Positions 3,341 through 29,483 of a stretch of 34,597 nucleotides of DNA are shown here, piece after piece. The first letter of the stretch is position 1, and the number at the start of each line of letters is the position of its first letter. The DNA lies in contig CANDMI010000040.1 of the NCBI GenBank assembly GCA_947385775.1, positions 1 through 34,597 of the forward strand, given 5' to 3'. This DNA is from an uncultured Eubacterium sp. (GTDB lineage Bacteria > Bacillota > Clostridia > Lachnospirales > Lachnospiraceae). Position numbers and translations under genes: made by a program. The notes below the pieces were generated by a model. The model made no database searches, was not told the DNA's origin, and saw only the letters and a list, made by a program, of their open reading frames with translations.

Positions 3341-3393
3341 TATGTATTTTAAAAGAGCATCTTCCCTACTCGCGCGCCAGGCGCCCGTACGCA

Positions 3394-3438
3394 TAAAAAA
3401 AGCATCCCACAAAACCCCAAAGGTTTCTTGCAGGATGC
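3394..3438 (-). terminator. Terminator of aroK-aroD
   Basis: On the minus strand GCATCCTGCAAGAAACC pairs with GGTTTTGTGGGATGC, followed by seven T residues. It lies about 85 nt beyond the aroD stop codon. Confidence 0.85.
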
Positions 3439-3449
3439 CTAAATCCATC

Positions 3450-3480
3450 GTTACAGCTCCGTCATTGGCTTTACTGTAAC
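3450..3480. repeat. Short inverted repeat GTTACAG...CTGTAAC
   Basis: GTTACAG and CTGTAAC are perfect inverted heptamers 17 bp apart, between the aroD stop and its terminator. The heptamer matches the right end of the nearby interspersed repeat, so this may be an internally deleted relic of such an element. That link is an inference. Confidence 0.4.
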
Positions 3481-3521
3481 ATTCTATCTGTATTTTTTAG
3501 CTGTTCGGCAGCGCTTTAAAA

Positions 3522-4283
3522 TTACATTTTGTGTAAAACAGACAATATTTCCTTTAACTTAGCCGCAGGCAGCTGGCCTGGCGCGGATGCCTGACCCGCG
3601 CAGCCAAATGTAACCGCCGAGCCAAACTGCTCCCCGCACAAACGGCTCATTACGCCAAGCTGCGACATAGACATCGTAATGATCGGTCGGTCGGCGTATT
3701 TTGTATACATTTCATCCGTAGCCGAAAGGAGCGTGAAAACATCTGTTTTCTCCTTTGGCATAACCGCGATTTTTACAATATCCGCGCCAAGCTCTTGCAT
3801 CTGACAAAGCCGCCTTATGATCTCCTCTTTCTTTGGCGTATGTTTAAAATCATGGTTTGACGCAATGACCTTTACGCCGTACTCATGCGCCTTTTTTATG
3901 ATATTTTCCACTTCTTCCTTGCCATCCAAAAACGCTTCCACATCTATGAAATCCACATCGCCTGTTTTTGCCGCCGTTTGGTTTAACGCCGCATATTCCA
4001 AAATCCCAATGGATCTTTTGCCGCCCTCTTTTGCTGTCCGAAACGTAAAAAGAAGCGGCATATCCTGTAATACACCCCTTAAATCAGACAATATTTCTTT
4101 GACCCGTTCCAAATCCGCCGCTTCCTCAAACCAATCCACCCGCCATTCCACAAAATCGGCGGCATCCGTATCCAGCTCTTTTGCCTGCTTTAAAATGCTT
4201 TCTTTTGTGCCGCCCAAAATCGGCACGCAAATTTTAGGGATTCCCTCCCCGATTTTTAAACCTCTTATATTTAATGGAATCAT
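3522..4283 (-). CDS. aroD: Type I 3-dehydroquinate dehydratase
   Basis: The 253-residue protein catalyses dehydration of 3-dehydroquinate to 3-dehydroshikimate in the shikimate pathway via a Schiff base. The class I active-site residues are all visible: EWR near 47-49, FRT near 82-84, His144 in SNHDF, the Schiff-base Lys171 in IVKIAVMPK, Arg214 in MSMSQLGVMSR and the C-terminal SAPGQLPA loop. The length is normal for a monofunctional enzyme. The ATG overlaps the aroK stop in an ATGA arrangement (4280-4283), so the two are translationally coupled, and a strong terminator follows. Confidence 0.96.
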   Translation of the reverse strand: MIPLNIRGLKIGEGIPKICVPILGGTKESILKQAKELDTDAADFVEWRVDWFEEAADLERVKEILSDLRGVLQDMPLLFTFRTAKEGGKRSIGILEYAALNQTAAKTGDVDFIDVEAFLDGKEEVENIIKKAHEYGVKVIASNHDFKHTPKKEEIIRRLCQMQELGADIVKIAVMPKEKTDVFTLLSATDEMYTKYADRPIITMSMSQLGVMSRLCGEQFGSAVTFGCAGQASAPGQLPAAKLKEILSVLHKM

Positions 4284-20778: not shown

Positions 20779-22101
20779 TCATTCGTAAAAAATATGGATG
20801 TGTATTTGCGCGCCGCTGTTGTTTGCATAGGTGGGGTTAAAGACATATCCGTTGATCTTTACAACGTTATCTTTAATTGTGATTTTTCCCAGGGCAGTAT
20901 CATTCCCGTTATGGTTTATGACATAATTGTCATTCACTAAAATCGCCGTTTTCGTGCTTGATGCGTATCCTCCGCCTTCTCGTATATTATCCTGGACATA
21001 CGCATATCGGACTTTGGTCTGCTCTGGTAAGGTGCAGGTATAATTCCAGTGCTTTGCATACGAGGTTTCATAAAAACTGGTAAATTCTTCCTCGTCCTGC
21101 AAATCGCCTTTTGGCCCATTGTTGCAGGAAAGCTCAATATCCGATTCAAACGGCTTTGTCTTTCCCTGTTTTTTCCCTTCCTCGAAGCCTTTTATATAAC
21201 TGATGGATTTATCATTTTCCCGCTTATCCGCAGCCTCCATGCCTGCTTTATAGCTTTCGGAATCTGGATTCACATGGCCATCCGCTTCTGTAATCCCTGC
21301 CTGCTTGCCTTCCTCTCTTTCTTTTTGGCATAATGTAAGAATGGAAGAACGAAGCTGTTCAAATGTTGCTGACGAACTAACGGATACTCCTTTGTCAGTA
21401 ATGGCGCCCGCCAATAAAGATTTTCCACTACTGACAGATGTAAAAGAATCGTTTACCTTTTTTTGTAAAGCGTCAAATTTTCCTTTCAGCTCATCATTCT
21501 GCCCTTCCAACGTTTCATTTTGCGTCTCCAGCCCCTCATTTTGTGTTTTTAAGTAATTTAGCTTGGCGCTGACGTTGGCTCTCGGATAGTTTTCCTTATC
21601 CGTCGTATCCGTCTGGCTGCCAATCCCAAAAAATCCTTTCAGCTTTTGCCAGGCATTTGCGACAAACGACAGCAACGATTTTTCTTCCGACGGGTCTTTT
21701 TTATCCTGGTATTCGGCTGACAGCTCCTCGCCCTTTCCAAGCTCCCGATTTTTCGTCACCTGCAAAAAATGCTCCTGCGCCTGCTCCCATGTTCCCTGAA
21801 TGTCATGCACGCAAATATAAAGCTCGCCGTCATACAGCGTATAATCGCCCGCGCTGTACGCCGTATTTTCATCAAACAAAACCGCGATCTTATCTGTTGC
21901 GTTGGATGTGATCACCGCCGCCTGGCTGTATGTTGTCGGCATGGCAAGCGCGCCTGCCGCAAACAGGGCAAAAATCGCTTTTTTCGCTCTATTGGTTTTA
22001 AAGCGGTCTGCGTTTTTCCAATTTGCTTTATTTTCATGATCGCTGTTTTGAAAAGCGCCATTTTCAGCGATACGGTTTCCTTTTATTCTGTTTTTTTCCA
22101 T
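20779..22101 (-). CDS. Exported coiled-coil protein with phage-tail-like modules
   Basis: I do not recognise this 440-residue protein as a named family. It has a long basic N-region with a signal-like hydrophobic stretch (about 39-62, ending YSQAA). Next comes a small module (about 76-116, YSAGDYTLYDGELYICVHDIQGTW) like the carbohydrate-binding modules of phage tail proteins and chitinases. A coiled coil (about 178-220) contains LETQNET/LEGQNDE repeats. The segment AITDKGVSVSSSATFEQLRSSI (about 233-254) resembles one common in Clostridia phage tail proteins. The C terminus (about 315-440) is beta-rich. It follows the 711-residue coiled-coil gene by 154 bp. A surface or adhesive role is an inference. 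The ribosome site is AAGGAG. Confidence 0.7.
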   Translation of the reverse strand: MEKNRIKGNRIAENGAFQNSDHENKANWKNADRFKTNRAKKAIFALFAAGALAMPTTYSQAAVITSNATDKIAVLFDENTAYSAGDYTLYDGELYICVHDIQGTWEQAQEHFLQVTKNRELGKGEELSAEYQDKKDPSEEKSLLSFVANAWQKLKGFFGIGSQTDTTDKENYPRANVSAKLNYLKTQNEGLETQNETLEGQNDELKGKFDALQKKVNDSFTSVSSGKSLLAGAITDKGVSVSSSATFEQLRSSILTLCQKEREEGKQAGITEADGHVNPDSESYKAGMEAADKRENDKSISYIKGFEEGKKQGKTKPFESDIELSCNNGPKGDLQDEEEFTSFYETSYAKHWNYTCTLPEQTKVRYAYVQDNIREGGGYASSTKTAILVNDNYVINHNGNDTALGKITIKDNVVKINGYVFNPTYANNSGAQIHIHIFYE

Positions 22102-22255
22102 TTTATAACGCTCCTTTTTGATTTTAAATTTTATTTCTCTTTTTTTGTGGATTTTCTGTTCTATATTTTTAATCTAGTTTTATTATTTCTTGATACAAGC
22201 TTTAATTTATTAATTTATAACTTAATTTCTCGTTCTCCCTCCTTTGATACGACCT

Positions 22256-24391
22256 TTATCTCTGCTTATACACATGAATGGAAACGATTTCAATATTTCT
22301 GGCAGGCTTGTTTGTGAATGTAATAAAAAGGCTGTCGCCGCTTGTGGAAAACGCGGCATGTGACGGCAGTTTATCCGGGCTTTTAAAATCTATTACAATC
22401 GCTGTGCTTGCATCGTCTAAATCGATCTGGTCTTGCTCTGTCACAAGCGGTATCTGGTAAGCATACGCCGAGCCGCTTTCCTGATAAGCGTATGCGTTTT
22501 CTTTTTCCGTAGATGCGTCCGCTAATAAGGTAATGTCCGCAAGCCACTTTTCTTTTTCCAACTCCCCTACGCGCGCCCTTGCGTCCGTTAGATCCGTATG
22601 GATATTCGTAACGCCTTCTTCCAGAGTTTTTGCGCCGCCGACATTTTTTAACGCATCCAATAAACCGCTTAGGCCATTGGAAGAAAGGATTTTCACGATC
22701 GAGCCGATCTTTTCAAAAATCGTATCCCCTTCGATCTTTCGAGCTGTTTCTTTATCGCCGATCAACGCATTTGTCTCGTCCACCCTGGATTGCAGCTTTT
22801 TATCCTCCTCCTCTCTAATCTTTTGCTCCTCCTTTAACATCTGTTCCTGTTTTTGCGCCTGGTCTTTTAACTGCTGCTCCTGTCTTTGCGCCTGGTCTTT
22901 TAACTGCTGCTCCTGCTTTTGCGCCTGGTCTTTTAACTGCGAGCCTTGCTGCTGGGTTTGCTGCTGTATCTGTCTGTCCCATTCCTCGTCCTTTTTTTCC
23001 TGCTGTATTTTAAACTGCTCCAGCTCCTCTCCGTTTTTATTCAAGGACTGCTCCAGCTCCTTGACAGACTTTTCAAACGCCGTATCCTGATTTTTGTTTT
23101 CTTCCTTCAATTCACCCACCAGTTTATTCAATTCCTGAATGGCGGCGGTATAAGCTTTGTCATTTCCCGCAAGCACGTCTACAAATTCCGCAACTGTCAT
23201 ATTGGCTGTAGATGCCTTTTGCGACTGTAGCGCGCTTCCATCCGCGGTTACCTTTTCCAGGTCTTTGTTGACAACCATAATGGATTTTGTCAGCTCCTTT
23301 GTCACAGAATTAATTTCCGTGATCAGACGGTTTATTTCCTGGATGTCATGCTGCATTGTAGATAAATCCGCCGTTTTTTCGTCATTCCACGTTTTTAATT
23401 CCAAAATACGGGCCGTCAGCTCATTTACGGATGACTTTACCAGATTGATATTTTCAGAAAGCTCCTCTGTCTTTTCTATCAGCTCTTTTGCGGCTTGCTT
23501 TAAAATCTTTTCCTGTAATTTTTCCGCCTGGGCTTTCGTCAGGTAATTTTTTGAGGATGATTTTATGTTTTTTTCTAATTTTGCCGCCATCTGCTTGGAA
23601 AGTTTTTCGATCTCTTTATCTGTCATAGACTTTGCAGAGGATTTCACAAGCTTTTCGATATGCAGGGAATTTTTTATTTTTTCCAGATCCTGGCTTGTCC
23701 ATTTTGCCGAGCTGTTTTGCAGCTGTGACTGTAAATCTTTGGAAAGCCGCTGCCTTAGCTGCTCCATCATGGCGTTTTTCTCCTGCGCAGAAAGCGTGCG
23801 GTTTACGTCTACCGATGCAAGCGCCGCGGTTATGGACTGATCTAACATGCTGCGGATTTCCGCTTTTTGCTTTTCCGTTAACGCCTCGCTGCCTGATTCC
23901 CCTGCGCCTTCCCGTAAATCCTGCCCTCCTGGCAAGGTCTGTTTTTCGGATAACGCTTCCTCTTTCGCCTGTTCCTTAGAACCGCGTTCCTTAGACGAAC
24001 GTTTTTTAGACGCAAGCTCCTTGGAAACGAACTCTTTTGCCACCGTACGTATCTCTTTTTTTGCCAGCTTTTTGACCTCGCTGCCTGGCTCTGTAACCGT
24101 TTCATAGATCCTCTCGCCCGTCAGCTCCTTTTCCACCGACTGGCTGACCATATCCGCCAAAATCTCTGTGCGTATCGTGTCCAATACATCTTCACTAATC
24201 TCATCGGATATCTGCTGAATGCGTTCCGGCGATATCACCGCCGTCCCCACTTCCGTAGACGCTTTTGTTTTATCCGTACACAAATATATGACAGCCACAA
24301 CCGCCGCTAAAACCGCGAAAAGCGCAAGGACAACAAACGCCACCTTCTTTTTATCAATCTCCCCATATTCATATTCGCCTTCCTGCTGCAT
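22256..24391 (-). CDS. Membrane-anchored long coiled-coil protein
   Basis: The 711-residue protein has a short acidic cytoplasmic N terminus, one membrane helix (about 17-37) and then a very long, mostly helical extracytoplasmic region rich in Lys, Glu, Gln and Ser (about 50-600). A basic KRSSKERGSKEQ patch lies near 130-145. Three 11-residue repeats of LKDQAQKQEQQ type lie near 484-516, a hendecad coiled-coil pattern. The C-terminal part (about 610-711) has a short Tyr/Ala-rich stretch and ends in a beta-rich domain with ITFTNKPARNIEIVSIHVYKQ. I do not recognise the family. It is upstream of the other exported coiled-coil gene, and the two may form one surface structure. The start has AAAGGAGG. 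Confidence 0.75.
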   Translation of the reverse strand: MQQEGEYEYGEIDKKKVAFVVLALFAVLAAVVAVIYLCTDKTKASTEVGTAVISPERIQQISDEISEDVLDTIRTEILADMVSQSVEKELTGERIYETVTEPGSEVKKLAKKEIRTVAKEFVSKELASKKRSSKERGSKEQAKEEALSEKQTLPGGQDLREGAGESGSEALTEKQKAEIRSMLDQSITAALASVDVNRTLSAQEKNAMMEQLRQRLSKDLQSQLQNSSAKWTSQDLEKIKNSLHIEKLVKSSAKSMTDKEIEKLSKQMAAKLEKNIKSSSKNYLTKAQAEKLQEKILKQAAKELIEKTEELSENINLVKSSVNELTARILELKTWNDEKTADLSTMQHDIQEINRLITEINSVTKELTKSIMVVNKDLEKVTADGSALQSQKASTANMTVAEFVDVLAGNDKAYTAAIQELNKLVGELKEENKNQDTAFEKSVKELEQSLNKNGEELEQFKIQQEKKDEEWDRQIQQQTQQQGSQLKDQAQKQEQQLKDQAQRQEQQLKDQAQKQEQMLKEEQKIREEEDKKLQSRVDETNALIGDKETARKIEGDTIFEKIGSIVKILSSNGLSGLLDALKNVGGAKTLEEGVTNIHTDLTDARARVGELEKEKWLADITLLADASTEKENAYAYQESGSAYAYQIPLVTEQDQIDLDDASTAIVIDFKSPDKLPSHAAFSTSGDSLFITFTNKPARNIEIVSIHVYKQR
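22850..22940 (-). repeat. 33-bp tandem repeat inside the coiled-coil gene
   Basis: The core GCGCCTGGTCTTTTAACTGC recurs at 22855, 22888 and 22921, a 33-bp period, and encodes the 11-residue hendecads of the 711-residue protein. The units are almost identical at the DNA level, suggesting recent expansion. Confidence 0.85.
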
Positions 24392-26831: not shown

Positions 26832-27539
26832 TCATCCCTTTCCTTCCAACGCCACGCGCGCGTTTCTTAGCCGAAAATGCCGCATCCCGGACACCCTTCC
26901 ATGCTTGGCGGCTTTGATGCCGGAAATAATTTCTGCGTAATTCGAAGCTCCAAAGGAGTGCATCAGCTGTATCAACGCCTTTTCCATATCCGCCGAAAGC
27001 TTTCGGAAATTATTGATTGGTTCATACTGCATTGAAATCCGGTACGCCTCATCCGACTGGTCTAACGGCAACGTAAGCCACCTTTCCACAAAGCAATTTT
27101 CCCGCTCAAACTGCTCTTTGATCTTTCGTCCACAAATCCCGCCTGGGCAAAATCCGCGTAAAAGGACGGTCATCGCCTTTTCATTTTGCATCATCACGCA
27201 TCGATAGAAATCTAAATTCACGCGTTCGCAGTCTATGACTAAAACACAGTCTGTACAAACCGCAAGGTATAGTTCCTGCGGCATCGCCCCAAGCTGGACG
27301 AATACATATTCATAGCCTAAATCCTGCCAGTTCGCACATGGCTCGCGACGGATAAAGTCTACATTATGATACGTCACTGTCTCTAAGTTTTTATCCGGCG
27401 TTGGAATGGATTCATACAGCGCGCTGTCATCCGACTGGTCGACGACGCAAACGCTCCTGCCGGTATTTTGCATGGCAAGGGCTGTATAAAGGCACAGATC
27501 CGCTGTAAATGTGCCAAAAAAGCCAATAATTTTAGGCAA
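26832..27539 (-). CDS. MinD-like partner protein without P-loop
   Basis: The 235-residue protein begins PKIIGFFGTFTADLCLYTALAMQNTGRSVCVVDQSDDS, which has the strand-loop-helix-strand order of a ParA/MinD fold but no Walker A sequence. Later strands (YVFVQLG, CVLVIDCERVN) fit the same fold. It is probably a catalytically dead relative paired with the next gene (4-nt gap), perhaps as a heterodimer. The start is TTG at 27539 with GAAGGTAGGTG upstream. Its control region carries repeated ATCGATAT and AATCATACGATT boxes (27600-27762). I cannot assign a function. Confidence 0.55.
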   Translation of the reverse strand: MPKIIGFFGTFTADLCLYTALAMQNTGRSVCVVDQSDDSALYESIPTPDKNLETVTYHNVDFIRREPCANWQDLGYEYVFVQLGAMPQELYLAVCTDCVLVIDCERVNLDFYRCVMMQNEKAMTVLLRGFCPGGICGRKIKEQFERENCFVERWLTLPLDQSDEAYRISMQYEPINNFRKLSADMEKALIQLMHSFGASNYAEIISGIKAAKHGRVSGMRHFRLRNARVALEGKG

Positions 27540-27599
27540 ATTAACACCTACCTTCTTTTTTTAATCCGCAAGATCGCATACTTTCACGATTGCGTTTTG

Positions 27600-27762
27600 A
27601 ATCGATATCCGGATTCCTGTTTCAATCGATATTTGTATTCCTAATTTGGAACTATATATCGATATCCGGGTCAATATTTATTTTTGGGGATTTTGGTTTT
27701 CTATAAATAATACTAAAATAATACTATAAATCATACGATTTCATGCTATGAATCATACGATT
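27600..27762. promoter_or_regulatory. Repeated operator-like boxes upstream of the MinD-like pair
   Basis: ATCGATAT occurs three times (27601, 27625 and 27658), twice as ATCGATATCCGG. Further upstream AATCATACGATT occurs twice (27729-27740 and 27751-27762), 22 bp apart, and has AATC/GATT dyad symmetry. The positions suit regulator binding, but no clear -35/-10 pair is visible. Confidence 0.4.
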
Positions 27763-27928
27763 GTTATTTGACTGCCTGTTGTCAGGCTGATAAAAGAAAA
27801 TAAGATTATATGCATAATAACATCTTTTTTTGCATTTGTAAAGGGGGATTTGATTTTTTTTTGAAACAAAAGATTGCCACTTAGTAATAGTTCAGATAAG
27901 GGGGTGCGTTTGGAGATAGGGGGACGCT

Positions 27929-28161
27929 TGGAGAGGGGAAGCGCCCGGTCTGGATGGGGCCATTCCAAAATGTAAGAAGTTCTAAGTATTCTGATTTTAT
28001 GTTTTCACAACCGGACGGACGCGGCTCCTCAATCGCTTCGGCTAACGCCAGAAGCGAAAGGAGCCGCTTACGGCTTCGCCGCCTGGTTAGGGAACAGAAT
28101 ACTAAGAACTTCTAGACATTTTTCCATACGCCCCAGCCAGGCCGGGCGCCTCCCCTCTCCA
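27929..28161. repeat. Left long hairpin of the giant palindrome
   Basis: The base stem pairs TGGAGAGGGGAAGCGCCC (from 27929) with GGGCGCCTCCCCTCTCCA (to 28161), with wobble-compatible changes. The stem continues through 27961-27993 paired with 28095-28128 (arms ending TAAGTATTCTG and CAGAATACTAAG). The apex carries a nested hairpin GCGGCTCCT (28021-28029)/AGGAGCCGC (28059-28067), with CGCTTC/GAAGCG inside it, and a separate CGGC-TTC-GCCG. Confidence 0.85.
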
Positions 28162-28162
28162 G

Positions 28163-28312
28163 GCTGTTTTTCACAAGCGTTACTTATAAATCACTGTACG
28201 CAATTTTTATCAAACAGGCTCGAATGATTTTTCCCTTGATATAAGTGAAAAAAATGATTCGAGCCTGAGGGTAATTGCTAAAGTTAATTGCGTTTATCTT
28301 GTGAAAACCAGC
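28163..28312. repeat. Central hairpin of the giant palindrome
   Basis: The outer arms GCTGTTTTTCACAAG (28163-28177) and CTTGTGAAAACCAGC (28298-28312) match at 14 of 15 positions. The inner arms CAGGCTCGAATGATTTTT (from 28215) and AAAAATGATTCGAGCCTG (to 28267) match at 17 of 18 and flank a short loop. It lies on the symmetry axis of the whole element. Confidence 0.85.
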
Positions 28313-28320
28313 TAGGGGAG

Positions 28321-28540
28321 GGGGGACTGGTCTGGCTTTCGGTGACGTATGAAAGAATGTTTAGAAGCCGTTAGCATTCTGTCTGATAACCAGGCGGCGA
28401 AGCCGTAAGCGGAGTTTGTCGCTTCTGGCGCAGCCAGGGCGAATTAGGCTCCGCGTCCGTCCGGTAGCGCAGACGTAAATGCAGAATGTTTAGGGCTTCT
28501 TACATTCTGGAATTGGAACCGATTGCCAGGCCAGTCCCCC
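28321..28540. repeat. Right long hairpin of the giant palindrome
   Basis: The base stem pairs GGGGGACTGGTCTGGC (28321-28336) with GCCAGGCCAGTCCCCC (28525-28540), 15 of 16. It continues through 28337-28381 against 28480-28524, with the shared AGAATGT, AGAAGCC and CATTCTG blocks. Its reverse complement resembles the left hairpin over nearly its whole length. Confidence 0.85.
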
Positions 28541-28612
28541 ATCCCCCGGCGTTCGGCTAGTTAATAATTATCATTGTAATAAATGCAAAATCCAGCACAT
28601 TCCCAAACCTTC

Positions 28613-29443
28613 CTACAGCTTTATCGCAACTTCGATAAATCCAGCCGCATACGGCCCTAACGCATATGGGTCCGCATAAAAACGAAGCTTCCCGTTTTTC
28701 AAATAGCAGCTGTCGCTAAAATCCATCTTTTTTAAAGCGCCTTTTAGGGATTTCTCCGAAGCGATCGCCGTATTGTAAAACGGGCTTTTCTTCGAATCCT
28801 TCAACTTCTTATATTTCTTCCAAAAAAGATCAGAAACCTGGCTGTTTAATTCTTTTTTAGAAATTCCAAGTATTTGCGCCGCCGATATATTTTCTCCGGT
28901 ATCTGTTTTGAAAAAATAAGCGATGCGGTATGGCATTCCATGCGCCCCAAGCGTATAGTCGTAACCAGACTGCAATACGCTAATATATTGCCCGTTTTGG
29001 ACAAATTCACAGGCCACCTCGTCGGCATAATGCATCGCCGGGCTATCCTTATGCTGTGTTACATCTTGTTTTGCGTCTTTCAGGTTATTTTTTGCGTTTT
29101 TGATCCACTCTTTGCGCCTCTTTTGATAAAAGCCGTTGAAAGCGTCCGCGGCAGGGCTATCGTCGTTTGCCACTGGATATTCATAAGAAATCTTTTTATA
29201 GATCACGCCCTGCTTTGTTTTAAACTCATGGCTGTAGGTTTTTTTCGTGATCGAAAGCTCTTCGTCCTGATCCTTTTTTGCCTCCTGATCTTGCACGCCA
29301 TCTTCCCCGGACAAATCCCCAGCCGTCTCCTGCGCCGTTGCAGCGGACGCGTCAACCGTTTTTAAAAAACCAGGCTTTGCGGCCGCTATGCCTAAAATAA
29401 GCGCAGCGACTCCAAATCCTTTGATCATTTTTTTTCGATACAT
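28613..29443 (-). CDS. Exported DUF3298/RsiV-like protein
   Basis: The 276-residue protein has a signal peptide or anchor (about 5-35) and an acidic linker. A domain follows with ISYEYPVANDDSPAADAFNGFYQKRRKEW, then YDYTLGAHGMPYRIAYFFKTDTGENISAAQIL and a C-terminal LRFYADPYALGPYAAGFIEVAI. The 'GAHG...F...TG..I....' and 'Y.LGPYAAG' patterns are those of DUF3298 and RsiV C-terminal domains. RsiV binds lysozyme, but here there is no adjacent sigma factor and the N terminus lacks an anti-sigma domain, so sensing is only a possibility. ATG 29443 is chosen (GTGAGG 7 nt upstream) over GTG 29449. Confidence 0.78.
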   Translation of the reverse strand: MYRKKMIKGFGVAALILGIAAAKPGFLKTVDASAATAQETAGDLSGEDGVQDQEAKKDQDEELSITKKTYSHEFKTKQGVIYKKISYEYPVANDDSPAADAFNGFYQKRRKEWIKNAKNNLKDAKQDVTQHKDSPAMHYADEVACEFVQNGQYISVLQSGYDYTLGAHGMPYRIAYFFKTDTGENISAAQILGISKKELNSQVSDLFWKKYKKLKDSKKSPFYNTAIASEKSLKGALKKMDFSDSCYLKNGKLRFYADPYALGPYAAGFIEVAIKL

Positions 29444-29483
29444 ATGCACACCTCACACTCTTTCTGCAATCTGTGAAAATATT

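Follow-up and report, generated by a model that had tools for sequence, protein, structure and literature searches.

The long palindromic sequence in the window (the whole 34,597-nt stretch that was analysed) is one copy of an interspersed repeat restricted to its genus. Its copies are dispersed and keep a fixed geometry, their arms covary with no clear preference for G-T over A-C, and an internal loop stays open. Among the options raised in the first-pass annotation, a mobile palindromic element fits these observations best, and we see an even chance that it is a non-autonomous, genus-restricted, REP/BIME-like mobile element with giant folded-DNA ends. If this is right, it would be a mobile element of the REP/BIME-like or foldback kind with branched ends of several times the usual size, preserved by selection that acts on the fold of the DNA and not on an RNA. 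Among openly licensed papers we found none that describes these elements, which does not imply their absence from print.

Architecture of the element in the window

The first-pass annotation had described two long palindromic hairpins of about 233 and 220 bp, inverted copies of each other, in a gene-free stretch of about 1.07 kb. Both statements hold: the hairpins measure 239 bp (H1) and 232 bp (H2), and the intergenic gap covers 1,073 bp (27540-28612) with no ORF of at least 80 aa. The parts of the element are listed below by window position (no strand is assigned to any of them), together with what they were recognised by; LE and RE are the two types of ends.

27884..27901: remnant of the outer terminal motif, GTAATAGTTCAGATAAGG (flank listing; a right-side counterpart is not clear here)
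27905..27938: outer foot of H1, with GGACGC at 27922-27927 and, ahead of it, a second, imperfect copy of the foot in tandem (TGCGTTTGGAGATAGGGG / GACGCTTGGAGAGGGG)
27926..28164: hairpin H1, LE type, 239 bp (arm matches, folds, LE class, covariation)
27975..27993: conserved core of H1, 5' arm (arm match)
28013..28020: conserved GGACGGAC strand of H1 at the three-way junction (sequence, alignment, fold)
28021..28067: terminal hairpin of the H1 junction (fold; covarying pairs in helices 4 and 5)
28071..28081: small side hairpin of H1, CGGC-TTC-GCCG (fold; covariation count of helix 6)
28095..28113: conserved core of H1, 3' arm (arm match)
28165..28314: spacer, 150 bp, no ORF of at least 80 aa, with inverted repeats at its two ends (TGTTTTTCACAAG / CTTGTGAAAACCA)
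28215..28267: local hairpin on the axis, absent from the spacers of five other copies
28315..28546: hairpin H2, RE type, 232 bp, in opposite orientation to H1 (arm matches, folds, RE class, covariation)
28363..28381: conserved core of H2, inner arm
28482..28500: conserved core of H2, outer arm
28549..28556: outer foot of H2, GCGTTCGG, the usual form elsewhere being GCGTCCGG

The outer arms of H1 (27926-27960/28130-28164) are 89% complementary and its inner arms (27975-27993/28095-28113) 95%, while the arms of H2 (28315-28343/28518-28546) reach 86%. The inverted relatedness of H1 and H2 spans blocks of 82-85 nt with 77-81% complementarity (81% for 28046-28130/28346-28430 and 77% for 27962-28043/28432-28513). 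Folding of both strands of a 721-nt stretch bore out the suspected structure, with z = -23.1 for the + strand and -26.1 for the - strand, values equalled by none of the 20 shuffles made for each. Taken alone, H1 gave z = -16.7 as RNA and -14.4 as DNA, and H2 -9.9 and -8.5, respectively (200 shuffles each). The fold is not a plain stem: a conserved internal loop lies outside the 19-nt core, and a three-way junction, composed of the conserved GGACGGAC strand, the terminal hairpin and the small side hairpin, sits on top. A degenerate search pattern that represents the paired core motif and was built from the window's own family matched once in the window and in none of 100 shuffles.

A third hairpin, placed by the first-pass annotation near 28240 on the axis shared by the other two, is indeed present (28215-28232/28250-28267, 94% complementary), but a search of the spacers of five other copies found none of this type.

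The left neighbour of the element (26832-27539, - strand) and the next ORF beyond it have no Pfam match; for the right neighbour (28613-29449, - strand), Pfam gives PdaC and DUF3298. Elsewhere in the window (20779-24391), two adjoining long ORFs of 440 and 711 aa on the - strand are also without a Pfam match, and the second of them, of 711 aa, is rich in repeats.

Copies, shared anatomy and a sister family

In the window's own genome (G000), 96 match rows correspond to about 24 loci of the window's family, as counted by reading the regions, and 10 of the 13 genomes of the genus contain matches, with just one weak row in G001. The multiple copies that the first-pass annotation had named as support for a functional element are thus at hand. 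The element search returned no match in 48 genomes outside the genus. Across 397 genomes of the bacterial family, the core pattern was found solely in G000; the set includes three genomes of the genus, two of them without the core pattern. This count is a lower bound, because many genuine copies escape the exact pattern. A named collection yielded at least 106 stretches from six assemblies, all titled 'uncultured Eubacterium sp.' or 'Eubacteriaceae bacterium'; these assemblies appear to be the genomes G002, G003, G005, G008, G009 and G010, and hence not further species. The core pattern occurred in no stretch of viral contigs, and the plasmids and phages searched gave no match.

The anatomy of the copies is regular. 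The distance between core starts was 109-121 nt in 210 distinct hairpins, most commonly 119, 118 and 111 nt, with a script that admitted 105-125 nt. The fetched loci contained 74 adjacent hairpin pairs, 67 of them less than 3 kb apart, and in 61 of these 67 the outer ends pointed outward (the 61 include one pair of the sister family B described below, and one hairpin of locus L053 fits neither end model). After removal of near-identical hairpins and those of undecided orientation, 134 units were kept, of which 132 entered the foot counts, the other two being too close to a contig end. GGACGC stood at the outer foot of 111 of the 132, and GACG at that of 118, compared with 652 of 6180 background 40-mers. 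Tandem duplications of the foot (GGACGC with flank) just outside the hairpin were noticed at L043, L146, L136, L121, L028 and in the window (27905-27938). In some other copies in G000 the outer terminal motif, GTAATAGTTCAGATAAGG, flanks both ends on the outside; likewise, GTAACNGTTCAGATAAGG is an outer motif at both ends of some window-family copies and is missing from many. All 10 scored window-family pairs in G000 combine an LE with an RE hairpin. As a universal rule this pairing was rejected, since it applies to just 36 of the 61 pairs overall, and outside G000 both ends are often of the same type.

The spacers range from about 74 bp to about 2.3 kb and are noncoding, minisatellite-like or sometimes occupied by a gene. 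Tandem arrays scoring above 100 are present in at least 14 spacers, for example 54 bp x 7.3, which starts at the inner end of a hairpin, 68 bp x 14 and 104 bp x 9.3. Diverged tandem arrays form the spacers in L079, L024, L162, L211 and others, and the array of L079 begins at the inner hairpin end. The spacer of L056 encodes a 208-aa transglutaminase-like protein (3573-4199; PF01841, E = 1.6e-10) and that of L149 a 153-aa GNAT acetyltransferase (PF00583, E = 5.4e-15). Between a hairpin of family A and one of family B, L057 carries a 188-aa ORF without a Pfam match (3376-3942), and a 302-aa ORF between a partial and a full hairpin of L055 stays below all Pfam cut-offs. PADLOC assigned no family to three ORFs inside or beside elements. 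The ORFs beside five unpaired hairpins are ordinary chromosomal genes, with no transposase recognised on reading.

The quasi-fourfold palindrome proposed in the first-pass annotation survives as geometry only: a hairpin resembles its partner in the same element no more closely than it resembles hairpins from other elements. Hairpin similarity within and between elements was 0.771 and 0.805 in G000 (10 elements), and 0.850 and 0.843, 0.811 and 0.841, and 0.815 and 0.817 in three other genomes (11, 8 and 18 elements, respectively). The two arms of a hairpin match each other more closely than either matches the opposite arm of another copy (0.804 versus 0.681 in G000; 0.83-0.87 versus 0.68-0.72 in the three other genomes). 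Judged by these comparisons, each hairpin of the fourfold palindrome is maintained as a unit of its own, the two lying in inverted order, and fourfold pairing as one giant fold is not maintained.

A sister family, B, occurs in the same genome and has the same hairpin-pair architecture with different arm sequences (L065:2969-3774; also L060-L072, L100 and L269-L288 of G000). Its copies have fixed outer ends, GTTACTTTTCAYGGGG, beyond the hairpins, and this end sequence gives 41 match rows in G000. An 8-bp duplication, TACAGATC, surrounds one of five bounded family-B copies, and the other four are without one.

Pairing in the stems and its likely basis

The divergence of the arms had been suspected to leave pairing intact, and the LE and RE alignments show that it does so by covariation. 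Stem cells were paired in 96.3% of cases among 25 LE hairpins and in 96.1% among 27 RE hairpins; these alignments are subsets of 62 LE and 67 RE units chosen for diversity, and the structures counted were derived from these very alignments as RNAalifold consensus folds, which favours the percentage paired. Both sides had changed in 45 of 73 LE pairs and 47 of 77 RE pairs. Double-changed cells numbered 188 and 217, compared with shuffled means of 50.7 and 57.9, and none of 500 shuffles was as high. When the partner was shifted by 1-3 columns, pairing fell to 34-47%.

A functional RNA folded from one strand is expected to accept G-U. G-T and A-C cells numbered 34 and 32 in LE (of 1822) and 24 and 50 in RE (of 2070), with 12 (LE) and 10 (RE) of the G-T cells held by a single terminal pair in each alignment. 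Counted in minimum-energy folds, where loop pairs are included as well, G-U made up 6.1% of LE, 4.7% of RE and 4.3% of family-B pairs (5 hairpins), compared with 9.7% in 14 tRNAs and 12.7% in shuffled hairpins. Since G-T is not clearly commoner than A-C, pairing seems, from the sequences, to be kept in DNA, on both strands at once, and not in a one-strand RNA. The internal loop beside the AGAATG/CATTCT stem was open in 123 of the 124 hairpins that could be scored out of 129 (the rest lack a recognisable core flank), and its complementarity was 1.33 of 6 bases, compared with 5.90 of 6 in the adjoining stem.

Two other accounts of the stems have to be weighed against this one. A structured RNA or another transcript-level element, such as a terminator or a processing or stability site, would likewise produce covariation. 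It could also explain a strand bias that counts against selection at the DNA level: as RNA, the outer-to-inner strand has the higher stability in just 16 of 62 LE, 11 of 67 RE and 1 of 5 family-B hairpins, so that the inner-to-outer strand folds better in most of them. The elements lie nearer to gene 3' ends (median 54 bp) than to 5' ends (142 bp), which also suits such a role. Nevertheless, G-T is no better tolerated than A-C, and the only Rfam family in the window is a tRNA located elsewhere. Gene orientation does not help either: 35 elements lie between co-directional, 10 between convergent and 10 between divergent genes, in comparison with 47, 18 and 17 in the background, as scored with a crude ORF caller and without the 6 of 61 elements at locus edges. 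The structured RNA suggested in the first-pass annotation is thus, in our judgement, quite improbable. The same lack of orientation bias, along with tens of copies between ordinary genes, makes a dedicated replication or segregation site, also suggested there, unlikely.

Inert dispersed repeats, the arms of which are kept complementary by template switching during replication (quasipalindrome correction) with no selection on shape, are a minor but real possibility. Template switching has been proposed to create and maintain stems, and it can also yield double changes (PMC8794818). Differences on both sides outnumber those on one side (3572 and 4181 versus 1732 and 2226 sequence-pair comparisons), and the tandem duplications inside the elements and at their feet point to replication slippage. 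However, copying should close the internal loop, which stays open while the stem next to it pairs almost completely, and the fixed core spacing and pair orientation need another cause. Because the loop stays open, we favour selection on folded-DNA shape, helped perhaps by template switching, over copying alone. The scarcity of G-T and the never-corrected internal loop together offer a way to tell DNA folds from RNA folds by sequence alone, and the same two signals also separate DNA-level folds from replication-driven palindrome correction.

Relation to known systems and possible mode of spread

The REP/BIME group (TnpA-REP, RAYT) is the nearest known kind. Like its members, the elements are numerous intergenic palindromes, none of them inside an ORF, in inverted pairs with a short tag outside the palindrome, and they share a conserved mismatch in the stem; conserved stem mismatches in E. 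coli REPs are needed for recognition (PMC8266576). They differ in length (about 240 nt, here 239 and 232 bp, against 20-50 nt), in the absence of GTAG enrichment (21 of 132, compared with 433 of 3120 in the background), in their three-way junction, in spacers that reach 2.3 kb and may contain arrays or genes, and apparently in the partner enzyme, as no Y1 partner was found in these draft genomes, where a hairpin lies near one of 20 Y1 loci. CGTC-tagged repeats are mostly head-to-head dimers with the tag outside and no dedicated transposase known, and have stems of 8-9 bp (PMC3733652). The paired arrangement, the lack of a known transposase and a related tag, GACG at 118 of 132 outer feet, are alike, whereas the palindrome here is many times longer and, by our reading, carries its tag on the strand opposite to that used there. 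ERIC, YPAL, bcr1 and MITEs are interspersed, noncoding, intergenic repeats that form stem-loops (PMC2267715), as are the present elements, and terminal inverted repeats, as in MITEs, are found here and in the sister family. Unlike any of these, each element here has two palindromes, each with its own maintained fold, and may carry a gene or an array; the 59 elements scored gave no duplication signal.

Eukaryotic foldback transposons have long inverted fold-back ends with tandem repeats inside. The present elements are bacterial; their ends are single maintained palindromes, and the arrays lie in the spacer. The attC sites of integrons are active in single-stranded form, folded and with conserved bases left unpaired, and are smaller than the hairpins described here. 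In summary of these comparisons, the element would behave like one with hairpin ends that is mobilised in trans in the form of folded DNA, and it belongs to none of the families tested.

We infer that selection on pairing acts at the level of DNA, that an enzyme uses the ends as its substrate and that transposition has spread the copies. The two ends of the element, imperfect palindromes of about 240 nt in inverted order, each with a GGACGC foot, an internal loop and a three-way junction, would be read as folded DNA, either as a single-stranded hairpin or as a cruciform. A putative recombinase supplied in trans would recognise the folded ends and move whatever lies between them, which is short noncoding DNA in the window and arrays or a gene elsewhere. 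A stronger version, that this is an undescribed DNA-mobility system of gut Eubacterium-type bacteria in which giant branched hairpins, recognised as folded single strands or cruciforms by a putative enzyme, delimit and move DNA of any kind, single genes among it, is tentative and on balance improbable; it draws on the transglutaminase-like and GNAT genes between the ends of two copies and the 188-aa protein beside the end of a third.

An ordinary MITE, whose terminal inverted repeats a classical DDE transposase would recognise in double-stranded form, with the hairpins as passengers, is doubtful in about the same degree as that stronger version. The fixed outer ends GTTACTTTTCAYGGGG beyond the hairpins of the sister family, its single 8-bp duplication, and the outer motif GTAACNGTTCAGATAAGG at both ends of some window-family copies speak for it. 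On the other hand, that motif is missing from many copies, the hairpin shape itself is conserved, and four of the five sister copies lack a duplication. No target duplication was detected in the 59 elements that could be scored out of 61, since two offered no usable feet or flanks (one of the 59 may belong to family B); the longest shared k-mer averaged 4.1, compared with 4.3 in 200 mismatched pairs. No IS66 (PF03050) transposase was found in the draft G000, and no insertion sequence with family-B ends was present among the part of the 41 end matches that was read. Integron-like cassettes with attC-type sites would account for folded-DNA ends that surround occasional single genes, yet R''/R' boxes at both feet were found in none of 132 hairpins and the pairs are inverted, not direct. 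The integron integrase (TIGR02249) exceeded the cut-off in none of the 13 genomes, and weaker tyrosine-recombinase matches occurred in all 13. Integron attC sites were excluded on the boxes and the integrase, and the cassette reading as a whole is very improbable. An assembly artefact, which the first-pass annotation had considered, is more improbable still: all listed records are draft assemblies and family-B copies are often at contig ends, but six other titled assemblies carry the same design as the window's genome, in different contexts.

Searches for Y1, IS66 and integron-integrase genes identified no mobiliser. Y1 (PF01797) genes occur in 11 of 13 genomes, with none in the element-rich G002 and one decayed piece in G000; these are drafts that may miss repeats, so the absence of a transposase is weak evidence. 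A comparison of the window's flanks with relatives found no empty site, the flanks being too diverged or rearranged. Hairpins were located near two of 40 transposase loci: L237 among 20 Y1 loci, where the Y1 gene lies, by reading, outside the element, and L299 among 20 IS66 loci. The genome G004 (largest contig 6.35 Mb) has 91 IS66 and 54 Y1 transposase matches yet no more than 1-2 hairpin matches, the opposite of what the element-rich genomes show. In L299 (G005), several hairpin core motifs lie at positions 33-595 near an IS66 transposase gene.
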